A DNA stretch of 64,000 bases, from NCBI RefSeq assembly GCF_041260155.1, contig NC_091929.1:45874744-45938743 (forward strand). Direction: 5' to 3'. The stretch's first letter is position 1; every line of letters begins with the position of its first letter. The notes beneath the pieces were generated by a model. It did not search any database, was not told the origin of the DNA, and was given only the letters and a program-made list of their open reading frames with translations. The position numbers and the translations under genes are program-made. This document shows positions 4,381-56,277 of this stretch, piece by piece. The DNA comes from Ptychodera flava (lineage: Eukaryota; Hemichordata; Enteropneusta; Ptychoderidae).

Positions 4381-4403
4381 ACTAGCAGTCGCACAGATCG
4401 CCA
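4381..4403 (+). repeat. Left target duplication and TIR of the 6.4-kb transposon
   Basis: ACTAG (4381-4385) followed directly by CAGTCGCACAGATCGCCA (4386-4403), which is matched without mismatch at the right end. Confidence 0.92.
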
Positions 4404-4681
4404 TATATGGAAAGCGATAGTAAAATACGCCCTCGGGCGGCAAGTACGTGCAAGTAAAAACTACTAACCAATCACATCACTGCTTTTGACCAGCAGATAT
4501 TAGTCCTATCGAAAATACACATACCCCAGATTTAAGTTCTGTTAATCAAAATCTGATTGGTTGAAACGTCCAGGCTTTTGTACACAGACTTATGGATAGG
4601 CGTTCTACCGATCTGCCGATCCGTTTGGAGATCCACCGTGCCGTTTTCTGGTGACAGCCGATCGTTCTCGCCGGTCTTGCC

Positions 4682-7600
4682 ATGGCCCCAGCCCCCTCCG
4701 TCCAGGATGATGATGATGGTGACACATCTGCAATCCCTCCAGATATGCTGAAAGGACATCTTGTTGTAGTAGTTTTGGTTATGTTGGTAGCTGCAGCTGG
4801 AGTTGGACAGTGTACGCGAGGTCTGAACAAGGGAAAGCATGGCCGATTTGTAAAATAATGTGCAAACCCGCTCCATTCACAGTGGTCCGGGACGGACGCT
4901 GCTCAGGAAACCAAGGCGTTTGCACGCTATGTGCCAAAGTCAATTATGGACGGTTTTAAGGGGCTGGATGCCCATGGCACCAACATTTGCCGCAATTGTG
5001 TGAATAAAGCTCCTCGTAAACGGGAGTTCACGCAAAACACTGTGACTTGTACCGTCGTTGACCCCGATACACAATCGAAGGTAAGCCTCAAATGCGGAAG
5101 TAAACGTGAACGTGGCTATTAAGTAAACCGAATATTGTTCCCACGGATTGTGTTCGCAGTATACCTATAAAAGCTTTACCGCTTAAACGTGAAAATACAT
5201 GACCGTGATCAAAATTTAATGAACATTATTGTGTTTTCTCTTCGTTTCGAAACATGAACTCTCATACAGATATTGGTTTTCTACATCAAACATTATGATT
5301 AACGTTTACCAAAACAGAGCAACAGAGCAGCCATGGTTTGTTATTGGACATTGTTTTTTTTCTGCAGTTTCTACATTTATTGACGAAATGTTTTGATTTC
5401 TATAAATATGCTAAATATTACCGCAGCATATGTAAGTAGACTGCCTTACCCAGTTACAAATTTAATTTTATGGAATAAATTTTCCGTTTTCTTGCATGCC
5501 ACTGATGCAGAGAGGACAAACAACAGCCACTAAGAGGAAAGGAGTAAGCCAAATAAAACTTGCAACAGTCCAACTACCAGTCCACCTCCTCCAAAAGTCC
5601 ACACAGGTGCATCTCGAAAACAGCTCAATTTTGCTGACGCTTCCCAAAACCGTTATTCAGGTGATGTTTTTCAAGCAAAACATTGTCAGGAGTGTTCTGA
5701 GACTGAACACCAAGTAAGAGACCTCAAGGACCAACTTCAATACCTGCTGAAAGACATTGATGACCTCCATGAAGAGAATGATGAGCTCAGGGATGAAGTA
5801 GCTAACTTACGCTCTGAAAATACCAAGTTCCATCTTGAAAAACAAACACTTTATAGTACTCAGGAACAACGTATTGCTGCAGTTAAAACAATTGCTGACA
5901 TAGAAAATGGGAACATATTAGAGGAAACTGTAAAGTCTGTTAATAGCAAAGACAGGCGAAATGTTGACAACTTATGTGCTTTAATTGTTAGTGATGAAAT
6001 GCAAAAAAGAAACAAAGTTTTAGAGCATTTGTTGAGTCATTGACAGCCAAAGCAACAGAAAGAGGTTTGGGAATGAGCACATCTACTGACAGACTTAAAA
6101 GAAAAACTGAAGTTCTCCGTCTCCAGGCTATAGACAATTTGTATGCTGCTCGAAACTTGAATTATGTTTCTAATTTACCTTTGCTGTGCAAGCTGTCAAT
6201 CACTCAATAACAAAAAGTGACTTGTCAACAAATATTATTGGGCACTGCTCAGCAGGGGCAGGCTGTGATACTTTAGGAAATTGGCTGAAAACAATGAAAA
6301 GTTCTTGTCCACCTGCACCTGATGGATTAATTGAGTACGCATTTGACAATGAACAAAGACTAATGAAAACATGGTTATCACGCATGGGTAATAAACAAAC
6401 TCTTGATATCCTGACAAATATAATTGTATGTCAGCTTGACCCTAATTCAACACTTCAGGAAAATGCAAACCTTAAGCCGTCAAACTGGAAAATCCCTTCA
6501 ACAGAAATGATACATCAAATGAAAGAGTTAAGTGAAGAAATGCAAAGTATTTTACACAGGGAAATGAAATCATCATTTCAGTCTCGGTTAACGATTGCCT
6601 TGGCTGATAAAAATGATGGTAAAGACAATGTTGCCATAAACGTAACAAGGCAACTTGAGAATGAAGAGTTCAAAATTTGTCCTAGGTGCAACAGAAAATA
6701 TAATAAAAAGACAAAGAAGTGTATTCCCTGTGACATTTGGATAGCCAAAGAAATAAAAGCTATGGCAAGAAATGATGATCATATAAGCACAAGAATTATC
6801 AAAGAGAGCAGAAAGAAATCACATCCCACCCAGCTGAAATTCCATACATACTCTGGGTATGATAAAACAAGTTGTGGGGGTTAAACAAGAGGTAAATGAT
6901 AAATGTGAAGTGAGAAAAGCTGCAATCCAGCTATTTGAACCTGTGTTTGTCAATCCTACTAGCATTGATGCTGTTAAGGCAATTTTACAAGCCATAGGAA
7001 AACATGCTGGGGTCAAACAATATACTGCTAATGGTAAAGGTGAGTGGGTTCTTGTGAGATGTGATGGGTTGCCATGGGGTTTGGTGAAGAAAGTCATTTA
7101 TAATGGAAAGGGTGAATTTGATTGGGTTGTATTAAGAACTGGCCCTGGCCATGAGGAGATGAACATTCTGAAATCATTTGAAGAAATGTACTGGCCTATC
7201 TTGTACAAGGATTTTGGTGAAACGCAAGGCTTCAAGACGGAGAAAGCACTCCTTTTTTTCAAAAACTGCAGTGACCATCATATAGCATTTGACAATTTTC
7301 TCAAGTTTCACGACGGTGTATGGGATGAGTTACTGTACTCATTTGTAAGAGATAGCACTGTAAGTGAATACACATATGCCAACTTCATGCTGTGGGTAAC
7401 TCATCAAAAACAAAATGATGAAACTTATTGTTTTATCACAGAGGTCATGCTCAATCATATGATGGCCATTTTAATGTTTCGCAAAGGCATCAGAAACAAT
7501 GACTCTGTTTTGATGAGGGTTGGTCGCCAAATTGCTTCTTCAATTTTCAATGGACGTAGACATCCTAAATATGCTGTTCTTGAAGCATGGGATGAATTCG

Positions 7601-8334
7601 ATAGGTTATGTTACCCACCAGAATTGGCATCGGTCTTACCATTGTATGAATCTGTATCCAGGTCAGGGAGGGCAGACCAGCACCAAGGGCTAGACTTTGC
7701 CTTGGAAGAGTATAACAAAAATGTGAAGAAATGGATTGTTGGACATTCAGCAAATTCAGAGCTTTGGGAACGTGTAATTACTAATTATGAAAGCTTAAAC
7801 AAGCTAAGAATGGTAATTTTTGAAACGCTTTCCCTCAATAATTATGAGTCTCGGCCTAGATATCGTCCCAGTTATGAATATGATTTGCAGGAATTTAGAG
7901 TATTGCTGCGAAGAAGCAAATATCTGATGCCAACTCCTAATAGGAAACTTGTTTCAATTGCTGGCAACAATCTATCAGTTGAATTGCTTCACTTCGAAAG
8001 CACTGCAAAGTCTAGGCGGTTCAAGATAATCACTGATTACCTCGTCCAAAAAAAATACCCTGAACGCATGCCTCATGTTAAACCAATTTGTATAAGAGAG
8101 GAGGAGGAAATAAATAACCCAAAGGATGAAAATAAGACAAATGATCAGTTGAAACAAGAAATAAATATCCTTCTCGCTGTATTGCCAAATGAAGTACAGG
8201 TTGATCTTCAGAAACAACTCTTCCAAGCAAAGAGAAAGGACTTACTACTGTCACTTTTGAACAGATGCAGGGAGCATGTAAAAAGCTACCAAACCGAGTT
8301 AGCAAATTTCGAATTGAACAGTTGCTCCATGTAA
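4682..8334 (+). pseudogene. Candidate transposase gene of the 6.4-kb element (two or more exons, frame broken)
   Basis: The coding stretch before the intron runs to 5080 and carries ICRNC. The intron is 5081-5510 (AAG|GTAAGC donor, acceptor after a pyrimidine tract and gatgcag). The second exon runs to 8334. In order it shows a Pro-rich linker, a coiled coil rich in Glu/Leu (about 5720-6040), a C-x2-C-x10-C-x2-C zinc motif (CPRC...CIPC, about 6678-6731) and a long conserved core (6859-8334). The intact protein would be about 1,000 residues. The frame changes about four times in the second exon and one in-frame stop lies near 4856, so this copy is dead or badly sequenced. I recall similar CDGLP/GPGH proteins as repeated, uncharacterised families in cnidarians and other marine invertebrates. 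A transposase role is inferred from position inside the TIRs. The true start is uncertain; ATG 4682 is only one option. Confidence 0.7.
6859..8334 (+). CDS. Conserved C-terminal core (491 codons) of the candidate transposase
   Basis: This is the longest open frame in the window. Conspicuous motifs by residue of this frame are CDGLPW (68-73), GPGHEEMN (95-102), CSDHH (137-141), RRHPKY and CYPPEL in the middle, and an acidic then helical tail rich in Lys/Glu/Leu. Conserved Asp, His and Glu residues in short motifs would suit an RNase-H-fold nuclease of DDE/D type, but I cannot show the fold by eye. A remote relation to the DUF6589/KDZ-like group was considered and is unproven. The preceding frame overlaps it at 6859-6884 in another register, so the first residues are probably not a natural start. 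It ends about 0.8 kb before the convergent HIRAN gene. Confidence 0.75.
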   Translation: MIKQVVGVKQEVNDKCEVRKAAIQLFEPVFVNPTSIDAVKAILQAIGKHAGVKQYTANGKGEWVLVRCDGLPWGLVKKVIYNGKGEFDWVVLRTGPGHEEMNILKSFEEMYWPILYKDFGETQGFKTEKALLFFKNCSDHHIAFDNFLKFHDGVWDELLYSFVRDSTVSEYTYANFMLWVTHQKQNDETYCFITEVMLNHMMAILMFRKGIRNNDSVLMRVGRQIASSIFNGRRHPKYAVLEAWDEFDRLCYPPELASVLPLYESVSRSGRADQHQGLDFALEEYNKNVKKWIVGHSANSELWERVITNYESLNKLRMVIFETLSLNNYESRPRYRPSYEYDLQEFRVLLRRSKYLMPTPNRKLVSIAGNNLSVELLHFESTAKSRRFKIITDYLVQKKYPERMPHVKPICIREEEEINNPKDENKTNDQLKQEINILLAVLPNEVQVDLQKQLFQAKRKDLLLSLLNRCREHVKSYQTELANFELNSCSM

Positions 8335-9144
8335 TGTTCATGTTGATGTAGCATGTCTTTTGTAGAAAGGTTGGTGTTAAAAGACACTACAACATACCCC
8401 AAAAAGTTCCAGGATGTTCAGTCATACACGGGCTGTGAAATAGGACAATTTTTCTCAGCAGTAATTTTTTCCAAGATTCAGTAAAACACTTAGTACTCAA
8501 GTTCCGTTTTATTTCCTGGACATTTATTTTGCCTTATCTGAAGTGCCATATCTTTCACTTTTTAGGTTTTGCTTGTCAATAAGAGTACAAAACTGATGTT
8601 GACTTTATTATATTTATTCATATCAATTTAAGAAACATTTAACAAAAACCAATTTACATTCCAGTTAAAGTTTTCTGTCAGGGATTTGCAAATACAACAT
8701 GTTGTCATTCTGATCCTTGTGTGCAAAGGACAGGAGTAGTATAGTATAGTATAGTGTAGTATAGTATAGTATAGTATAGTATTATAGTATAGTATAGTTT
8801 TTACAAGTATTTTGATGTAGTTTCTTTTTCTCTAGTTTAATCATATATAAGGTATTTTACGAGAAGTGATTTGAAAATTAGAAGCACCAATCAAAAACGT
8901 TTTAACAATGATTGTTCCAGTTTCAAAAAGATAATTTGTGCAATCAGTGATTATATAAAAGCAAGTGAACAGGGGTAAACACAAATATTTTATACTTATA
9001 TAAAATATTTTATATAATATATATATAAAAATATATATGTATTTATATAGTCAAACTGAAAAAAAATGTTCTATTCTAGTATAAATTTCTTTAGTGTTCT
9101 GAAATAAAAAGTTTTTTGATAGCATGACTGTCAGCTATGTCTTT
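8335..9144. other. Non-coding spacer between the convergent transposon genes
   Basis: AT-rich 3' region of both genes. It contains a TATAG microsatellite (8735-8799), a run of TA-rich sequence near 9000-9050, and a plus-strand AATAAA at 9103-9108 that could end the candidate transposase transcript. Confidence 0.6.
8735..8799. repeat. (TATAG)n microsatellite
   Basis: About twelve copies of a 5-bp unit with two interruptions. Confidence 0.9.
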
Positions 9145-10103
9145 TTATTCCTTCTCAATATAGTCATCACCCTCCATCTTATCAATGGTATCTTGCAGCA
9201 TGTTCAATACTGAGCACCGTCTTGCCACAGGTATATCAACATCATATCTACAGGTACAGACAGCTCCGCCTCCTCGTCTGTCAAAGTTGTGACCACGTTG
9301 ATACTTCTGTTGGGCTGGTGGTACTTGACTTCGCTGTACAGTCCCAAAGTAGCGGCTGGGAAAACAAACAGCACAATAAAAGAAATGAACAAATATTCAG
9401 ATTTCTTAGATCAACTCTAAAACAGAATCACAACTCTAGTGTTTTGAATGAGCAAGGCAGTGCTGATTGCCAATCTTTGAATTGGATCTGACAACTGTAT
9501 GATAGATATGCCCAGGTACATACCATGTAATAGAGGCCTCGCCACCTGCAAGTATTCTCCTGAATGCAGCACAAAGATTGGCTGGTACACGGCCTACTTG
9601 CTTGCCAGCTATATCGTGTATGACTTGGGGTTTGGGGTACCTCTTATCAGCCTCTCGGGTGACAGCATCGTGAAGGTAACTTGGAATTGAATCTAGTGTT
9701 GGCATGGTGACTGACATGGCCTTTGGATCTTTTTTGTTGTGGTCCTCCTTCTTCACAACCAGTGGCACATCCACATGGGGACGAATGTGGAAAAAGTGAT
9801 ACCTGAACAAAGTACATTAAGTGAGTGTCAACAAATTAGGAAAATACTAGCAATTGTGTTACAAAAATTACACGAATTTCACAAAGCTATCTTTGTGACA
9901 TTTTTGACGAAAAAGAGTAAACTGTATGGTTTGACGATGGAGGAAAGCAAAGGGTTGTAAATTGTAAACTCGACACCAATAAACTGGGGCGCTTATTGAC
10001 AATTCAAAAGACAAGTGTATGATGACATGCTCAAAATAACTTACCCACTTATTGTGCTACGGACTTTGATTGTTACACGTTCATTGACATCCATCATTGA
10101 CAT
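9145..10103 (-). CDS. HIRAN-domain protein of the 6.4-kb transposon, spliced, 182 aa
   Basis: Coding exons on the minus strand are 10103-10045, 9802-9524 and 9355-9145. Together they give 549 nt with no stop before the TAA at 9145-9147, and every junction has GT/AG (donors GTAAGT and GTATGT; acceptors TTGTTCAG and TTTTCCCAG). A non-coding first exon probably ends at 10577 (CTCG|GTAAGT) and joins at 10107. The protein shows the HIRAN pattern: GYHFFHI (20-26), a basic/acidic strand with KEDHNKKDPKAMSV (38-51), and GKQVGRVPANL (86-96) followed by FRRILAGG. A 25-30 residue insert separates the halves, and the tail has Cys 113, 146, 148 and 160. HIRAN domains of HLTF/Rad5 bind 3' DNA ends, so a role in handling transposon ends is plausible but inferred. 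AATAAA overlaps the stop codon region. Its frame is intact although its partner gene is broken. Confidence 0.78.
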
Positions 10104-10759
10104 AAATCTGACAAAAAATACACGATACATTTGTGAGTATTGGCAATGTCTCAGTCTGACAAAAATACTCATGTTTGATATGTTTTGACGGCGTGACTCT
10201 CGGATCTAGTACTGTAGGGCTTGCAGACACCTCACAGCTATCACTCCGCAAATTGTCTCAAGTTTGAGCATGTTGAGGGTCACGATTAATAATAATGACC
10301 GACAAAAGTGTTTCTGGAGAACTCTGAGAGGATCAAGCATATTCTGGAAATGTGGAGATATCGATGAAGACGGTCTTCAAAATAAGTAAACCCTTACTAG
10401 TACGACGTTTGCTGTCAAGGCTAGCGTATCAGTACTGTACTGCTCAACTCGCGATACTGCGATAGCGATGTGAGCAAGACACTCTCCGCATCAATAGCCG
10501 AATACATCGAATAACACTACTTATCTTAGCTTAATGCGCACAATAAACATCTAGAATCCTTGGGAAAAACACTTACCGAGTATACACACTGAACGTTGAA
10601 ATTGTACAGGTACTACGGCAACTTCTGATGCTGTGATCATACGTGTCAAAACCATGTGTTATCGATGACGGTTCACTGCGCACATTGTTTGCGCACAGTT
10701 CTGATTGGTCAATAGACGACCCTTGACATATAAATTAATATTCATTGTATTTCCTTTTT

Positions 10760-10782
10760 TGGCGATCTGTGCGACTGACTAG
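10760..10782 (-). repeat. Right TIR and target duplication of the 6.4-kb transposon
   Basis: TGGCGATCTGTGCGACTG (10760-10777) is the exact reverse complement of the left end and is followed by ACTAG (10778-10782). Confidence 0.92.
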
Positions 10783-14454: not shown

Positions 14455-17400
14455 CTACGCCCCCAAGGAATGGCAATGAGGGTCTGAAACAAAAAAAGAA
14501 AATAGGCGAAGATTAAAACATACGGAATGTGTATATGCTTGGCTTATAAACTATTTTAGAAATTGCTTCAACAGGTTCTATACAAATATAAGAAAGTCTT
14601 TAGTGAAGTTTTTTATTCATGGAAATATGCAAATAAGTTCGACGCCCGAGGAGCCAATGTAAGTTCGTACTCTCATCTATTTTTAAAATAGTAGTTTGTC
14701 TGAGGTTTAGGTATTTTGCTACCTTTAATGCGATAATTTTAACTTATATTTTTAGCACAGATGTTAAAAAACCAAGGCATATATAAATTGCGTCTTCCGA
14801 CAAGGATTTTAAGATTTAAAGGTATACTGTCACCTGTTCCAATTTTGCCACAGTTACCATGAAAAGAGAAAATCTAACCAATCACAGATTTCAAGCGGGT
14901 GGCCACTTTTTAAAAACAGCGCCCTCACATGGGCATTTTGAATACCAAGCAACGCCCCTTTGACCATATATGGGCATATTTAAATTTACAGGTGACTGAA
15001 TACCTTTAATCGCACAGAGGCTTCTTTTTATGTATCATACCATATGATATATTGTAATACGCCGACTTTCTATTTTTAAAACAACTGTTGTTGAATGTTT
15101 GCACCGGCAACGATTTATAGAATCCACTCTATCACAAGACACACTCTGTTGCTTACATTACATGACATAAATAACACATTATTATTTTGTGCATACCTGG
15201 AATTTCACAGACTATGCCCTTTGGTCGGAAGTCGCAGTATTCATCGTCCCACAGACCATTGTGAGAGCCCCTGAACCTGTTGAGATTAATAAACACGACA
15301 CAATTTTTAGGGGTGAATTCTGTCACGAGGTACTGTACGAAACCTTGAGTGAATTTATAAAAAACGGAGAAAGAGAGATCGACAAAGGCAGACAAACAAA
15401 CAACCATAAAAGCAGACAGACTGACTGACAGACAGATAAAGGGAGACAGGAAGAGCAACTGTGACAATATATACGCAGTTCATCGCATCATAATTATAAA
15501 ACCTCACTGCACTGAAAAATCTACTATAATACCAGTATTTCAAGTAAATAATAAGATTTGCATATGGCTAACATACCTTGTGGCAGCTGCCTACGATTTG
15601 ATGGATAAAAATACTGTTGTTTCTGGTTTAATCTTAAGCATGCCGTATTTTATACTCGTTGGGGATAGAAAAGACAACGGTGAACAAATGATCGCTTTGA
15701 GCGAGATTCGTCAGTAAGAATGGTTATTATAAGAAAGCTTTGCTTTTATGAGGTCATTGAAAGTCTTTACATTGAATATAGCTTTTACCATTCTTTTGAA
15801 TTTTAATGTCTGACGTATTCTTACCAAAGTTGTACGCAATCTTGTCCATCCGTGTCTTTCTTTGTGTTGTTGTTTGGTTCGCCCGATGCCCAGTTGCGGA
15901 AGTCGAAGTCGCAAAAAGCTCCTCCATCGCTCCAGATGAATTCGCCCTCCGTCAAGCTGTCACTAAGACCGATCCAGAAGCCAAATCTGCTAATGCATGG
16001 GCTTTGATGCATGTTATTACTTAAGATTTGTTTTCTGATTTCAGCGTCGATCCGTGGAGTACGTAACGCTGCAAGACGACCTGATGGTCCACCAGCCTGT
16101 ATTGAAAGGGTGCTGCAAAACTCAGCTGCTTTCTGTTGGTATGGGTGGTCGTTAGGGTCTTGTTCACAGTGTACTTCATACACCATGCAATCGCAATCTC
16201 CCTTTTCACAATCTTCCATCGTGAAAGAGACTGTGAAGAGCAAATGTGGTAGCAGAAATATTACGACGCTTGAAAGCGTAATGATTGAGAAGTTATGCAT
16301 TCTGATGCACACACGTTTTGATGCATACAACTGTGTTCTACGAAAATAGCCATCGTATAAGTCACACACATATAGAAAGGCCAATAAAAAATTACAGGAT
16401 TTTCTTAAATAAAGAATTATATCGTGTACCTTGGCTGGCTTGATTGAAAACTTAGAAAACTTCAGAAGAACGTAAAACATTCGTTTATACTCTCTTTGTA
16501 AATCTGACCTGTTTTCCAGAGTTCAGTGGTTTACTTTCCTATATAATAATTATTTAGCTGATAATCAGAATCTTGTTATATGAAGTGCGAGGGCATGATT
16601 TGATAATTTAACTAAAATAAACACTGATATACGTGGTGCAAATTACCTATTTTGTGATAAGAAGCAAAGACTAACTATCGTACCATGTGGCTGATACCCG
16701 AATACGGTTTCATTCGTAACGAGATAACATTTAGGTATATCAGACCTACTAGCAAGCGGGCGCTCAGAGCAGAGAATGTAACGCATGACGCAAAGGTATA
16801 TGCTTTTGATTATGTGATTAAACACCTTGGTTAAACGCCATTGCCGACAAAACGTGCATCAACACAATAATTGGGTGTTACACTCCGTATAACATAGTTA
16901 TGTAAATTTAGAAATGGCGCAAGGTAGTTTGACTCATAATGCCTCAGATAACTAGAATGTACTAAAGGAGATTACAGGCACCACTCAGCTTGCTAATTAT
17001 ATTATACATTTTAGTTTAAATCATGTTATCGATGAAACAAACAATGGAATATAGTGAGTAAATAAGGTGACTTACTTGGACCTTGCTACTCCGGCATGAT
17101 GTTAAAAAGAGAAAATACCTTAATTAGCCGATTAACCTTTTATCAAGAACGACAATGTGTACTACCTTTTAGTTCCGACGAATCATGCATTTCGTAATTA
17201 TCTGCTAAATCACTTATTTTTTGCGTGATTTGAGAAAATTGACGCCCTTCTGTTACTCAGCAAGACTTTATCTTTAAAAGAGTAGCCTACACAATAAACA
17301 TGGCTGTACAACCCATTTTTGAGTTTCACGAAGCATACAAACATTCTCTTCCTAATGCGAAGTGCGTATTGTCTGTCACATTGCATACATAATACCGCGA

Positions 17401-26394: not shown

Positions 26395-26890
26395 GATAAA
26401 AATACTTTTGAATGAATTCGCTTGATACATGTCTGAGTTATGGTTCAGGACATGAAAAAAATCGTAACAAAATGGTCGCACAGCGGCCATATTGGATCGC
26501 ATCACAAAACAAATTGATGTGCATAGCTATGACATTGGTCGATGTCCTTGTACCAACTTTGAATAAAATTGGTCAAAACATGCGGATATGCCTGAGAAAT
26601 GGCTCTGTACATGAAAAAATCGTAATAAAATGGCCGCCTGGCGGCCATATTGGATCGTATCACAAAACAAATTGACGTGCATCTGTATGACATTGGTCAA
26701 TGTCCTTGTACCAACTTTGAATAAAATCGGTTGGAACATGCCTGAGTTATGGCTCTGTACATGAAAAAATCGTAATAAAATGGCCGCCTGGCGGCCATAT
26801 TGGATCGTATCACAAAACAAATTGACGTGCATCTGTATGCCATATGAAGTAATCCTTGTATCAAGTTTGAATGAAATCGCTCCAGGCATC
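26395..26890. repeat. Three tandem units of about 150-157 bp
   Basis: The phrase attggatcg followed by atcacaaaacaaattga recurs at 26491, 26648 and 26798. The two later units are nearly identical over about 120 bp. The short minus frames here are by-products of the repeat. Confidence 0.85.
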
Positions 26891-26909
26891 TCAGAGATAT
26901 CTGCGTGAA

Positions 26910-26980
26910 TGGACGGACGGACGACGGACGGACGGACGGACGGACGGACGGACGGACGGACGCACGCACGCACGCACGGA
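26910..26980. repeat. (ACGG)n/(ACGC)n microsatellite
   Basis: About seventeen tetranucleotide units abutting the tandem repeats, followed by an inverted-repeat-like phrase around ccccggacggtgtccg. The arrangement resembles a widely dispersed invertebrate repeat with a built-in ACGG array. Confidence 0.85.
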
Positions 26981-34937: not shown

Positions 34938-37673
34938 CTACAGGGAATGGCAATGAGGGTCTGAAACAAAGAAAGAAAACAAGCGGGGATTAGAACTTTC
35001 AGAATGTGTGTTTGCTTGACTTATAAACTATTTTAGAAATTGCTGCAACAAGTATTGTACAAATATAAGAAAATTTTTAGTGATTTTTTTTTTATCTGTG
35101 GAAATATGCAAATAAGTTCGACGCCCGAGGAGCCAATGTAAGCTCGTACTCCCATCTATTTTTAAAATAGCAGTTTGTCAGAGGTTTTGGTATTTTCCTC
35201 TCTTTAATGAATGTGAATGTTTTAACCTAAATTCTCAGCACAGATGTGCAAAACCTAGAACCAAAACCTACATGTTGATGGATTTTAAGATTTAATCGTA
35301 CAAAAGCATCTTTTTATTTTCATACCATATGATATCTTGTAATACACCGACTTTCTATTTTCCAACAATCGTTGTTGAATGTTTGAACCGACCATGATTG
35401 ATAGAATCCACACTATCACATGATATAATCTGTTGTCTACATGAACTGGCATAACTTACACATACTAGTTTGTGCATACCTGGAATTTCACAGATAATGC
35501 CCTTTGGTCGGAAGTCGCAGTATTCATCGTCCCACAGACCGTTGTGAGAGCCCCTGAACCTGTTGAGATTCATAAACACGGCACAATTTTTAAGGGAGAA
35601 TTCTGTCACGAGGTATTATACAAAGCCTCAAGTGAAGCTATAAAAACAGAAAAAGAGAGGCAGACAGACGAACAGACAGAGAGACAGAGACAGACAGACA
35701 GGCAGGAAAATAATGGAAATTGGCAGTTCATCGTATTACAATTATAAAACCACACTGCACTGAAAAATCTACTGTATTACCAGTATTTCAAATAAATAAT
35801 AAGATATGCATATGGCTATCATACCATGTGGTAGATACCTGAGTACGATTTCGTAGATAAAAAGAACAAAATTATTGTTTCTGGTTTAATTGTAAAGCCG
35901 AATTTAAACTCGATGGGGAGAGAAACGATAACGGTAGATAAACGATCGCTGTGAGCGAGATTCGTCAGTGAGAATGGTTATCATAAGAATGCTTTGCTTT
36001 AATGAAGTCAATGAAATTTAATGTCTAACGTATTCTTACCAAAGCTGTACGCAATCTTGTCCCAGTGTGTTTTTCTTTGTGTTGTTGTTTGGTTCGCCCG
36101 ATGCCCAGTTGCGGAAGTCGAAGTCGCAAAAAGCTCCTCCATCGCTCCAGATGAATTCGCCCTCCGTCAAGCTGTCACTAAGACCGATCCAGAAGCCGAA
36201 TTTGTTAATGCATGGGCTTTGATCCATGCCATTACTAGTGATGTGGTTTCTGATAGCAGCGTCGATCCGTGGAGTACGTAACGCTGCAAGGCGACCTGGT
36301 GGTCCACCAGCCTGTACTGAAAGAGTGCTACAAAACTCAGCCGCATTCTGTTGGTATGGGTGGTCGTTAGAGTCTTGTTGGCAGTAGATTTCATACACCA
36401 TGCAATCGCAACCTGCCTTTGCACAATTTTCCATCGTGAAATTGCCTGTGAAGAGCATATATGATAGCAGCAACATTACGACTCTTAAAAGCCTCATGAT
36501 TGAGAAATTATAAATTCTGATGCACACATGTTATGATATGCATACTATTATTATATGCACTCTTAAAACAGACATCGTATATTAACTTACATGTAGAAAG
36601 GCTAAAAGAAAAATAACAAACATACTTTCTTAAATAATCGCTTATATAATCGCTTATATCGCTTACGTTGGCTGGCTTGATTGAAAACTTAGGAAACTAC
36701 CTAAGTACTTAAACATTCGTTTATACTGGCTTTATAAATCTGACCTGCTTCCAAGAGGACAGTGGTTTACTTCCCTGTATAACGATTAGCTGCTAATCAG
36801 AAACTGACTATCGTACCGTATACGGTTTCATTTGTAACAATCAACGACGGTGCTCGGACGATAGAACGTAACACATAACGCATTTGCACAAACAGCTACA
36901 TGCTTTTGATTAAATCACTAGACATCCCAGTTAAATACATCCTGATACTCCATGCCAACAAAACGCGCGTTGTCACCATAATACGATGTTACACTTCCTT
37001 TCAAATACTTATTAAAGTTTAGAAATGGCGCTAGGTATTTTGATACATAAGGCCATTCATTTTGCTAATAATGTCATATATCTTAGTTTAAATAGTGTGA
37101 TCGATTAACCTAATAATGGAATATAGTAAACAGGGTGACTTACTTGGACCTTGCTACTCCGGCATGAGGTTTAAAAGGAGAAAATACTTCAATTAGTCGA
37201 TTACCGTTTTATCTAGAACGACAATATGGAGTTCGAATGAATCATGGACTTTGTATTATCTGCTTAATCACTTATCTTTTTGCGTGATTTGAGAAAAAAC
37301 AACGCCCTAGTGTTACTCTACCAAAACTTTGTTTTATCTTTAAAATAACAGCCTAGACAATTAACTCGACTCGACGACGCATTTGTGAGTTACATGAAGT
37401 ATACAAGCAGTCTCTTCGAAATGCGAAGTGCGTGTTGTTGGTCCCATTGTAATACTTAATACTGCAAAAACGGATAAAACAATATTTAACGCTTTTTTTA
37501 AATAAAGAAGAATCACTATAATATTGGTGACGAATAGACAAAACGTGATAATCATAAAGGTCACCAGTTTTCTCAAAATGGTTTTGATTTAATAGACGAT
37601 ACAAATTATATTTACTCACAGCGTAACACATCGCCACACAGGCAAAGAAGGTGGCAGCAAATTTGCAAATCAT
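34938..37673 (-). CDS. Secreted C-type lectin B, 190 aa
   Basis: Coding exons (minus strand): 37673-37620 signal peptide (MICKFAATFFACVAMCYA), 37153-37144 microexon, 36445-36040 and 35559-35480 the CTLD, and 34960-34938 the tail. The total is 573 nt, open to TAG at 34938-34940. Splice sites match lectin A one for one. WIGL, EPN, QDC, WDD and ICE are all present; the tail is two residues shorter than in A because the stop falls earlier. Differences from A concentrate in the first half of the CTLD and in the loop after EPN, while WIGL to WASGEPNNN is identical. Intact frames and splice sites in both copies suggest two working genes. An alternative leader starting MRLLRVVMLLL lies just upstream of the 36445 acceptor. 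Confidence 0.85.
37144..37153 (-). other. Probable 10-nt coding microexon of lectin B
   Basis: Same ten bases, donor GTAAGT and preceding gccggagtag as in lectin A. Confidence 0.65.
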
Positions 37674-41673: not shown

Positions 41674-41913
41674 CTAAGCAGTACACGCCGGAATTTGGAA
41701 GCAGAACAAAAAAATCAATTTTGGATCAGCTTTAAAAACGTCATTTAGAGTTGTTACACATCTTAAAACGTAGGAATATTTTCTCAGATTAATTCTAGAT
41801 GCGCTTACTAGGAAAATAAAATTCTTACGCAGCTGTCTGCTCGGTAATACCGAGCTGACAGCTGCGCAGAAAAGATGCTTTGTACAAAATGGATGGACTT
41901 TCATATTGTGCAT
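41674..41913 (-). mobile_element. Possible LINE C-terminal fragment
   Basis: The minus frame includes SRINLRKYSYVLRCVTTLNDV, resembling the SRTDxxKYSFFPRTxxDWNxLP stretch at the end of several non-LTR reverse transcriptases. It is short and weak. It contains the strong hairpin at 41828-41866. Confidence 0.4.
41828..41866. repeat. 39-bp hairpin
   Basis: CGCAGCTGTCTGCTCGGT and ACCGAGCTGACAGCTGCG pair along 18 positions with one T/T mismatch and a 3-base loop (AAT). Confidence 0.85.
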
Positions 41914-51904: not shown

Positions 51905-52869
51905 ATGGGTGTAGGTCTTGAGCAGTATCGAGCTAAAATTGGCGGATTTGCCGGTGGCGACCCAGACAGGCAGAGGAAAGTACCCAAGATGGCCGCCCTC
52001 GTCATACCTTTGTTGAACAGCCAGGTGTCACTCTCCATCAAGCTCTGTCTGGTTAGCCTGCTAGTCATTGCTGGAAATGTTGAGAGAAATCCCGGACCCA
52101 TACTAAGGTCAGCAGGTACAACTACTGGTCCAGGAACGGAACTGGCTACAAGGCCGATATTACAGGTATCGATGAGAAACTTGACAGACTAATAACGGAA
52201 TCTCAGCACATACACGAAAAGTTAGAAGTAATGCAGAACAGAGTGGACAACATTGAGGACGAAATGTCTGAATTCCGCGAACAACTAAAACAAAACACAA
52301 CGAAAATGACAGAAATGGAAGCCAACCCTAGTACATTCGCTGGACTGAAAACAACACTAGATGAATTACGAGAAGAAAATAACCAGCTTAAACGTGCAAA
52401 TGACGACCTGGAAAATAGAGGAAGAAGAAATAATCTCGTGTTTTATGGCATCGAGCAAGACGGCACAAATGAGAGCTGGGACACATCTGAGAAAAAAGTT
52501 AAATCTGTACTGAAAAACAACCTGGAAATTACTGAAGATATCGAATTCGAAAGAGTACATCGTATAACAAATGCACCGTTGATACGAGGAGCCCGGCCAA
52601 TTATCGCTATGTTCGTCAAATTCAAGGACAAATCCAATGTTCTACGAAATGCCAACAAACTGAAAAACAGTAACATCAGCATTAGTGAAGACTTCTCCAA
52701 ACGAATGAGAAATATTCGTTCCAAGCTCCTGATGTTCCGGAGATCTCTACTTGAAGAAAACCCGGCTTTAAAAACATTCATCCGTTATGACAAGCTCACG
52801 TGCATCAACGAAGAAGGCACCAAACAATTTATCAAGTTGATGAAAATTCCGGAGAAGTTTGCCCAATAA
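51905..52869 (+). pseudogene. LINE ORF1: 2A-like leader, coiled coil, RRM-like domain
   Basis: The first frame (51905-52192) has a hydrophobic run ending GNVERNPGP (residues 57-65), then Ile. This fits the 2A recoding motif D-V/I-E-x-N-P-G-P except that Asn replaces the first Asp. A frame change near 52190 leads to the second frame, with a Leu/Glu coiled coil (about 52170-52420), LENRGRRNNLVFYGI and ERVHRI...RPIIAMFVKF. This is the RRM-like core known from L1 ORF1 nucleic-acid-binding chaperones. 2A-like leaders are known in some invertebrate non-LTR elements. Confidence 0.82.
52073..52099 (+). promoter_or_regulatory. 2A-like ribosome-skipping motif
   Basis: Codes GNVERNPGP after a Leu/Val/Ile-rich stretch (LCLVSLLVIA). 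In active 2A sequences the ribosome skips the final Gly-Pro bond. The Asp-to-Asn change may lower activity. Confidence 0.65.
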
Positions 52870-52928
52870 GACAGTCTACGCGCTAGGGAGGTGGCCAAGG
52901 TCCAAACCAGTCGAATATTTCAATTCTA

Positions 52929-55900
52929 GTGTGGAACATTAGAGGTCTAAAATCTAAGGTGAAAAATTCTGAATTTATTGCTTTGTGTTCTAATTATGAC
53001 ATAATTGGTTTAATCGAAACATTCTGTACAGATAAAGACAAGGTTGATTTTTTGGATAACTACGTTGTATACACATATCCAGCCTCTCGTTGTAGTTCTA
53101 AAGGGAGACCAAGTGGCGGTACAGCTCTTTATATCAAGAAAAGTATCGCCCGAAATGTCAAAAAAGTAGCTTGCAATCTGGAAAATTGTATTTTTGTTAA
53201 TTTAGATAAAATTTATTTCATTTCGATAAAGATGTGTTGTTTGGGTGCTGCTATTTCCGTCCAGAATGTATTTTAGATAGACTTGACAATTTTGAAAATC
53301 AGTTGCTGCATTTATATACTGTACATTCAGATAGTTATGTTATAGTGGGAGGTGATTTCAATGCCAGGACGGGCACGGAGGCTGACTTCATTTTGGATGA
53401 CACTATTGACCACCTTCCTTTTGAAGATTCTATGTACATGATGTATAACCCATCCAGTTTTCACATTCCGAGAAATTCAAAAGATTTGATTTTGAATGAG
53501 GCTGGCAAATGCTTACTTAACATCTGTAAAAATTTTAATTTACATATTGTTAATGGTCGACTTGCCAATGACAAGGTTGGTAATGTGACATGCATAACCT
53601 CACAAGGTTGCAGTGTGGTTGATTATATAATGATGTCACCAGAGCTTTTCAATTATGTAAACCGGTTCGATATTCTCTCCAGGATAGAATCGGACCATTT
53701 TCCTGTCAGCTGTTATATTCATTGTGCAAAAGCTTACACTCAAAAGAGCAAAACCTGTGTCAATGACCGTTCACACTCTATTCGTTATCACATGTCAGAG
53801 CAATGCAGTAAATCTTTCAAAGAAAAAATCACTTCTATTCATGTACAGAATCTTCTTGAGGAATCAAGAAACAGTTTACCAAATACAAATAGTGCTATTT
53901 TGAAAATTAACGAAGCGCTCCAGATGGCAGGTGCTGATGGTCGCCAGCAAAAACCACGAAATCCGAAACTGATTAGACAGCCATCTTGGTTTGGAATTCC
54001 CTGTCAGAAAGCAAAACGATTGGTGTATGACAAATTAAAAATTTTCAGACAGACTGGGTCAACGATTGCATTGGCTGATTATAAAAATGCTAGATAAGAA
54101 ATTCAAACAAACTTGCAAATGCAGAAAACAGGATTATCAAGACAGAGTTAGAAACCAATTTCGAGTTGCTGCAACAGGGAATTCATCTGAATTTTGGTCA
54201 ATTTTGAAATCTGTTTTAAGAAGTAAGGGAGGATATACATCCAGTGATATTAGTATTCATGAGTGGTATGATTATTTCAGTTCATTGTATCAAGAATGTC
54301 ATGATGTCACTCAAGGGGATGTAGAGTTTTTGCATTCTGTAGAAGAAGAGATAAACTTGTATTCAGATCTAAGGGAAGTAGACGATGACGTATATGATGA
54401 CGTCAATGATATTCTGAATAGCCCAATATCTGAGAATGAAATTTTGATTTGCTTAAAGAAAATGAAATCAGGTAAAGCTCCTGGTCCAGATGGACTACCT
54501 GTTGAGTTTTACAAATATGCAGCTGACGTTATTTTACCTGTTTTAGTTGAAATTTTCAACTTTATTTTCAATTCGGGAAACTTTCCTTCTGAGTGGACTG
54601 TTGCAATTGTCATCCCATTATTTAAGAAAGGTGTAAAAACTGATGTCAATAATTATAGGGGTATATCTCTCCTCAATGTTCTGGGGAAATTTTTACCTCC
54701 ATTTTAAATAGTAGACTAACCAAGTGGTCAGATAAAACAAACATAATTTCTGATTGTCAAGCTGGATTCCGAAAGAATCACAGTACCATAGATAATATTT
54801 TTGTTTTACATGCTATTATCCAAAAATACCTGAGTATCAGACGTGGGAAACTTTACTGTCTTTTTGTTGATTTCTCCAAAGCTTTTGACAGAGTTAATCA
54901 TTCTCTTTTACTGTACAAACTCATGTCACTTGGAGTCAAAGGGAAAATGTATTTTATTTTACAATCTATGTATAGCAACATTAAGTCATGTGTGAGATGT
55001 GGTAATGTAACATCAGAGTATTTTGACTGCCCGGCTGGTGTGAGACAAGGCTGCATTCTTAGCCCACTTCTGTTCAGTCTTTTCATTGAAGAATTGAATT
55101 CTATGTTTATGGAATCAGGTCACATGGGTATTCAATTGACGCAAGATTTATGTGACCTTTTTGCTTTGCTCTATGCAGACGACATTGTCATCTTTGCGGA
55201 TTCAGTCAGAAATTTACAAAATCTTATTGACATTCTTTACAATTTCTGCTCGAAGTGGCAAATGAAAGTGAATCTGGAGAAAACAAAGGTAATGATTTTC
55301 CGCAAAGGTGGTCATCGAGCAAGATTTGAAAATTGGCAGTTTGGTGGCACTCCAGTCAATGTCGTCTCATATTAAAATACCTTGGCTTGCTTTTATCTTC
55401 CAGAAATATCTGGTCGAAAGCTGTACAACACTAGCAAGTCAAGCCAGTAAAGCCCTCAATATGTTGTCAATTACCCGACGAAAGCTAGAATACTTACCTT
55501 TTCATTCTCATTTTAAATTATTCGATTCAATGATTTTACCAATTTTAAGTTATGGATCTGAGATATGGGGCTTCCAGTATTATGATGTTTTAGAGAAAAT
55601 CCAGAGAAAGTGGTGTCGCCAGTTTCTGGGTGTACACGTCAAACAACAAATGAAGCTGTTATGGGAGAATGTGGTCGTCTTCCAATATACTACCATACAT
55701 TAAAACGTTGTATTCGTTTTTGGGTGAATCTGCTTGAGTTATCTCCTGATAGAATCCCAAGGCAGGCATATAAATGTTGTACAATCTTGACAATTTAGGC
55801 AGAAACACATGGGCGAGTTCCATAAAAAATATCATGTTTTCATATGGGTTTGGATATGCGTGGATCTCACAGGAAATAGGAAATAAACAAGTATTTTTAT

Positions 55901-56277
55901 CTATGTTTGACTTGAGAATTGTAGACACTTTAAAACAACAATGGAAGGGCAACTTATCAACAAAACCGAAACTACATGTATATAGTCAATTCAAGGGTTT
56001 ACTTGAACCAGAGAAACATTTACTTTCAAATTGTAATTATAAAGCTATTCAGATTTTTACCTGTTTTCGATGTTCGGTTCTCCCTCTAGCAATGGAGGAA
56101 GGCAGACATCATGGTATTGACCCATCAGCCAGACTTTGTAAAGTTTGCCAAATGAATGTTATTGAAGATGAGTGTCATTTTCTTTTGGAATGTCCAGCAT
56201 ACAACAATTTGAGGATTCTATATTTGCCTAACTTTTCATTTGTAGACCAAATTTCAACAAATTTGTGCAGCTTATGA
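52929..56277 (+). pseudogene. LINE ORF2: APE endonuclease, reverse transcriptase, zinc knuckle
   Basis: The endonuclease begins WNIRGLKSK, continues with GLIETFC, GGDFNAR near 53350 and ends at SDHFPV near 53690. The RT shows SGKAPGPDGLPVEFYK near 54480, AGFRKNHSTIDN, FVDFSKAFDRVNH, GVRQGCILSPLLF and YADD at 55172-55183. The C-terminus has EKIQRKWCR, then CKVC...HFLLEC (C-x2-C-x9-H-x4-C). The frame shifts several times (for example near 53240, 54080, 54700, 55370 and 55620), so no full protein is made. All catalytic blocks are still recognisable, which suggests a fairly young copy. Confidence 0.88.

Follow-up and report, generated by a model that had tools for sequence, protein, structure and literature searches.

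A 64,000-nt window of the genome of the hemichordate Ptychodera flava (contig NC_091929.1), which is the whole stretch of DNA analysed here, contains a DNA transposon copy at positions 4386-10777, as judged by its ends and its gene layout. The element holds a large gene, whose core belongs to the Pfam family DUF6589, and a small gene encoding a HIRAN-like protein. We consider it likely that this 6.4-kb element is a cut-and-paste transposon, with the DUF6589 protein acting as a DDE-type transposase and the HIRAN-like protein as an accessory factor. This reading builds on the direct observation of the ends, the target-site duplication, the gene layout, the assignment of the large core to its family, the conservation of this core and the occurrence of the small gene at several loci.

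Element ends and gene layout

The terminal inverted repeats of 18 bp are both exact, with CAGTCGCACAGATCGCCA at 4386-4403 (+) and at 10760-10777 (-). Lengthened to 28 nt, the inverted repeat matches at 89%. The ends start with CAGTCG (CAG..CTG) and are flanked on both sides by the 5-bp sequence ACTAG. With up to 3 mismatches allowed, CAGTCGCACAGATCGCCA has 2 matches in the window, compared to 0.03 on average over 100 shuffles. The significance of the pair was assessed using dinucleotide shuffles (n = 40) for inverted pairs 0.5-20 kb apart, with low-complexity words excluded. A single exact 18-mer inverted pair is present in the window and none in the 40 shuffles, with or without a 5-bp direct repeat, while the chance level for shorter words in the same shuffles amounts to 367 exact 14-mer pairs without the 5-bp repeat and 4 exact 12-mer pairs with it. 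The exact 18-bp repeats and exact 5-bp duplication that an earlier sequence-based note on this DNA (the original prediction) had reported are thus borne out, as are the two convergent genes that it placed between them, the large gene lying on the + strand and the small gene on the - strand. Elsewhere in the window, a 12-bp inverted pair (35303-35314 / 41870-41881) with a 5-bp flanking repeat is within chance (4 per 40 shuffles). The G+C content of the element (0.385) is similar to that of the window (0.373). Exact recombination signal sequence heptamers (CACAGTG or its complement) and nonamers are missing from the outermost 80 bases at each end. The element and its flanks comprise the following features, with the type of evidence in brackets:

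4381..4385, left copy of the 5-bp target-site duplication ACTAG (sequence)
4386..4403, + strand, left terminal inverted repeat CAGTCGCACAGATCGCCA, with an imperfect extension to 4413
4925..5080, + strand, probable coding sequence from the 5' part of the large gene, containing HxxxxCxxC (HGTNICRNC) and closing with a possible donor GTAAGC (translation)
5534..6040, + strand, coiled-coil-looking stretch of the large gene, as seen by eye, with a further CxxC (HCQEC) (frame translation)
6186..6884, + strand, middle part of the DUF6589-type protein, with FDNEQ and CxxC..CxxC (from 6678 and 6720) (tblastn, profile A3)
6859..8334, + strand, 491-residue core, Pfam DUF6589 (open reading frame, Pfam scan, alignment, tblastn)
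8735..8800, intergenic TATAG microsatellite (repeat analysis)
9145..9355, - strand, exon 3 of the HIRAN-like gene, with the stop codon (splicing, tblastn)
9524..9802, - strand, exon 2 of the HIRAN-like gene, with the GKQVGRVPANLC motif (splicing, Pfam, alignment, tblastn)
10045..10103, - strand, exon 1 of the HIRAN-like gene, with the start of protein P0006 at the ATG at 10094 (splicing, tblastn)
10760..10777, - strand, right terminal inverted repeat, exact copy of CAGTCGCACAGATCGCCA
10778..10782, right copy of the 5-bp target-site duplication ACTAG (sequence)

The large gene and its DUF6589 core

The large gene consists of the open reading frames (ORFs) 6186-6884 and 6859-8334 on the + strand, plus pieces upstream. 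The core encoded by the latter matches the Pfam profile DUF6589 (PF20231) with 29.7 bits, above the cut-off of 27, with the match limited to profile positions 269-403 of 410. According to its Pfam entry, DUF6589 is a family of unknown function. In the Pfam scans, the core matched no named transposase family, in agreement with the original prediction. A protein search with the core returned 2 relatives among 4446 candidates, P0001 (42% identity over 96% of the core) and P0002 of Mytilus edulis (44% over 53%), and a second, core-scored search admitting longer proteins returned 3 of 6076, namely P0003 (42% over 70%), P0004 of Saccostrea cucullata (32% over 77%) and P0005 (31% over 81%). P0001 likewise scores above the DUF6589 cut-off (28.8).

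Alignment of the six sequences yields 43 invariant columns, the initial Met among them, including C68, D69, G70, P72, G97, H98, E100, M101, N102, D139, H141, G277, L278, D279 and F280, while an E-E pair is invariant in a 5-sequence alignment. Of the CDGLPW-GPGHEEMN-DHH core that had been proposed, CDG.P, GHxEMN and D.H are therefore conserved in six sequences, but the W of LPW is not.

The protein that contains the core also includes ORF 6186-6884, since profile A3, which was built without this ORF, detects it at E = 8.6e-31 and since P0003, P0004 and P0005 cover it in tblastn and continue into the core in a different frame. As these relatives align across two frames, a frame change lies between about 6866 and 6925 in this copy. 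A short intron at this position was considered and dropped, the aligned parts being separated by at most 58 nt. Our reading of the frames suggests other changes near 4957, 6015 and 6175-6190; upstream of 6174, no relative was aligned by tblastn. Sequencing error is a possible source of the frame changes. The large gene is broken in this copy, with the small gene remaining open. Thus, the zinc motifs and, by eye, the coiled-coil-looking stretch of the large zinc-binding/coiled-coil protein described originally are present, but not within one open frame.

The small HIRAN-like gene

The small gene encodes a spliced protein of 182 residues on the - strand, with three exons, two GT..AG introns and a frame that is open throughout. 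Its exon boundaries lie within 20 nt of the ends of the tblastn matches with P0007 and P0008. At E<=0.1, eight relatives were found among 49 candidates. The window protein is identical to P0006 of P. flava (100% over 98%), and further relatives occur in P. flava (P0007, 71%; P0012, 45%), Glandiceps talaboti (70%) and Mytilus edulis (P0011, 46%). The gene is therefore present at several P. flava loci (P0006, P0007 and P0012, whose contigs differ in length), and M. edulis contains relatives of both the large gene (P0002) and the small gene (P0011). The motif GKQVGRVPANLC is invariant in 8/8 relatives. The original assignment as a HIRAN-domain protein is upheld in a weaker form: the HIRAN profile (PF08797) matches all eight relatives weakly, hence the name HIRAN-like, but these matches and that of the window protein (14.2 bits) are below the Pfam cut-off of 24.7.

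Proposed mechanism

The DUF6589 protein would be a transposase with an RNase-H (DDE) fold. Its putative active site comprises a first D in FDN(E/N)Q, a second D in CDG(L/S)P, an H in GHxEMN and an E in GLDFxLEE. In the window, the candidate residues correspond to codon 6345-6347 (FDNEQ), 7063-7065 (CDGLP), 7150-7152 (GHEEMN) and 7705-7710 (LEE), respectively. The motif DPVFVN was also considered as the site of the first D and dropped, as the window has an E at that place. The zinc motifs in the N-terminal half are predicted to bind DNA. The transposase would recognize the 18-bp ends and excise the element, and insertion by cuts staggered by 5 bp would generate the ACTAG duplication. Because the large gene is broken here, this copy could move only with an enzyme supplied by an intact relative. 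The HIRAN domain of HLTF provides an analogy for the handling of DNA ends, and by this analogy the most likely role of the HIRAN-like protein is that of an accessory factor handling DNA ends, either in the transposition complex or during repair.

Several observations weigh against this scheme. Conserved D/D/E candidates are seen, but the predicted models are poor, with a mean predicted local distance difference test score (pLDDT) of 65.6 and 53.2, so that the transposase fold itself is not seen, and Foldseek returned no match for the models at E<=1e-3. P0003 scores below the DUF6589 cut-off (24.1), and P0002, P0004 and P0005 are without a DUF6589 match at E<=0.1. The HIRAN scores of the eight relatives range from 12.0 to 20.7 bits, under the cut-off in every case. 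Finally, only one complete element was seen, the DNA covered being this window and viral and prokaryote contigs, in which an animal element is not expected, and the two genes were seen side by side in this window only.

A RAG1-like N-terminus in two relatives

The N-termini of P0004 (1-134) and P0005 (1-129) are 46% identical to each other. A profile of the two, compared with 177635 PDB sequences at E<=10, gave 3 matches, all of which are RAG1 (whole-sequence E 1.2e-5, 0.044 and 0.044; best single stretch 0.018), and P0005 alone matched RAG1 at E 0.089. Furthermore, the Pfam model RAG1_imp_bd matches P0004 (E 6.9e-4, 19.7 bits) and P0005 (E 5.1e-4, 20.1 bits), both below the cut-off of 23.3. 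The shared pattern is CRxCG ... IDxxxDxxSxHPxxxCxxC. In the window, whose large gene is broken in its 5' part, the RAG1-like N-terminal profile has no significant match, and only CxxC and HxxxxCxxC patterns occur there, in broken frames.

The available text of Kapitonov and Koonin 2015 (PMC4411706) names the N-terminal part of RAG1 the Chapa domain and states that, besides RAG1, it occurs among known transposable elements only in the Transib superfamily (TransibSU, Chapaev, Chapaev3). From the RAG1 match, the N-terminus of P0004 would be a Chapa domain. A RAG1-like N-terminus is also shared with N-RAG-TP of the sea slug Aplysia, which the accessible part of a 2021 article (PMC8355894) presents as an element composed of a sequence resembling the RAG1 N-terminus. 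As judged from the oyster protein P0004 and P0005, N-RAG-TP would fit a piece of an element with a RAG1-like N-terminus and a DUF6589-family core.

Relation to known transposon groups

The original prediction had proposed an undescribed superfamily. That the element is a DNA transposon without a named transposase family in Pfam stands, and a new superfamily is plausible; a separate one is not established, because 5-bp duplications are known from Transib/RAG-like elements (according to sections of PMC8355894 and PMC7204232) and, in the partial account available, from hAT5, and because two relatives carry a RAG1 N-terminal domain. This domain and the 5-bp duplication together point toward the RAG/Transib/Chapaev group. 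The element may hence be a divergent lineage of this (CMCT) group instead of a separate superfamily, with a HIRAN-like second gene in place of a RAG2-like one, a view that we regard as somewhat unlikely. It is favoured by the PDB matches of the P0004/P0005 N-terminus profile, which are limited to RAG1 chains, by the weaker RAG1 and RAG1_imp_bd matches described above, and by the RAG-like elements, for which the consulted part of PMC7204232 describes both 5-bp duplications and convergent gene pairs. In addition, a CxxC begins 17 residues past the CDG aspartate in P0004 and P0005, and their last E is preceded by an HxxxH (FHGRNH); the two resemble the motifs C(2)C and H(3-4)H that, in the source excerpts, characterize the CMCT group between the second D and the last E. 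However, this CxxC could just as well belong to an ordinary C2H2 finger, and the window core, P0001, P0002 and P0003 lack both the CxxC after CDG and the first H. The RAG1-like N-terminus is undetected in the window copy, and the ends begin with CAG, while those of Transib/RAG-like elements begin with CAC. Moreover, when the family was compared by hhalign with a single mouse RAG1 core sequence, the probability was 0.1% with a shallow profile (effective number of sequences 2.2), and the Pfam scan of 7 members, in which HMMER filters drop most weak matches, listed neither a RAG1 core model nor a hAT model. Chapaev and Chapaev3 resemble the family through the RAG1-type N-terminal ('Chapa') domain of P0004 and P0005, but differ in their 3-4-bp duplications and CAC..GTG ends (given for Chapaev in the portion of PMC4079192 available), compared to 5 bp and CAG..CTG here. 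A divergent hAT element resembling hAT5 would account for the 5-bp duplication. We consider it quite improbable, as the Hermes rows in the VIA comparison are weak (ranks 28 and 35, beneath unrelated rows, with Z in the uninformative range), and hhalign with a 155-residue piece of Hermes gave a probability of 0.2%.

The remaining alternatives concern the gene pair. The HIRAN-like gene could be a captured passenger that is dispensable for movement; it was seen beside the core in this one element only, and transposons are known to capture accessory genes, for example TET/JBP in fungi (as reported in the excerpt of PMC12730594). The presence in M. edulis of relatives of both genes would instead point to a long-standing pair, and we find the passenger role unlikely. 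That two host genes lie between chance repeats, or that an unrelated element moved a gene-bearing segment, is highly improbable: a single copy was examined, but the statistics of the repeats and duplication, and the occurrence of the small gene at several loci in few species, argue against it. Tentatively, and at slightly less than an even chance, DUF6589 proteins would be the transposases of an undescribed animal superfamily with 5-bp duplications, a standing HIRAN-like partner and, in some members, a RAG1 N-terminus, a further lineage that may have had parts in common with, or swapped parts with, the ancestor from which the antibody-gene recombinase derives.

In the literature searched, which consisted mostly of open papers with Repbase and Dfam outside it, the transposase family was not found named as such and the gene pair was not found described. 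The name DUF6589 was not found there. Among the matches listed for HIRAN together with transposons, none looked relevant from its title and the opening of its abstract; 'HIRAN domain' with 'transposable element' gave one match, on marine-basin viruses and unrelated judging by its listing; and searches on new superfamilies, the Chapa domain, N-RAG-TP and HIRAN mobile elements gave, as far as their listings show, no description of this element. The word HIRAN was not found in the KolobokP paper (PMC9587614), and the P. flava genome paper (PMC11175523), in its accessible part, treats transposable elements by class and contains no word beginning with 'RAG'.

Significance

If the proposed reading is correct, DUF6589, which Pfam lists without a function, would gain one, and the DDE transposons would be joined by a lineage whose partner gene is HIRAN-like. 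The RAG1 N-terminal zinc domain would then occur on a core other than those of RAG1, Transib and Chapaev, contrary to the statement in the available text of PMC4411706, which would bear on how RAG1, the antibody-gene recombinase, was assembled.

Other features of the window

Two similar ORFs, 15821-16480 (-) and 36036-36527 (-), lie about 20 kb apart, the former matching Pfam Lectin_C above the cut-off. A broken ORF run at 52231-56277 (+) appears by eye to be a non-LTR (long terminal repeat) retrotransposon, with a coiled-coil ORF1, an endonuclease and a reverse transcriptase; its piece 54066-54704 gave nothing significant in the Pfam scan. ORF 26527-26973 (-) contains a VRPS repeat of short period, and one block within it is duplicated.
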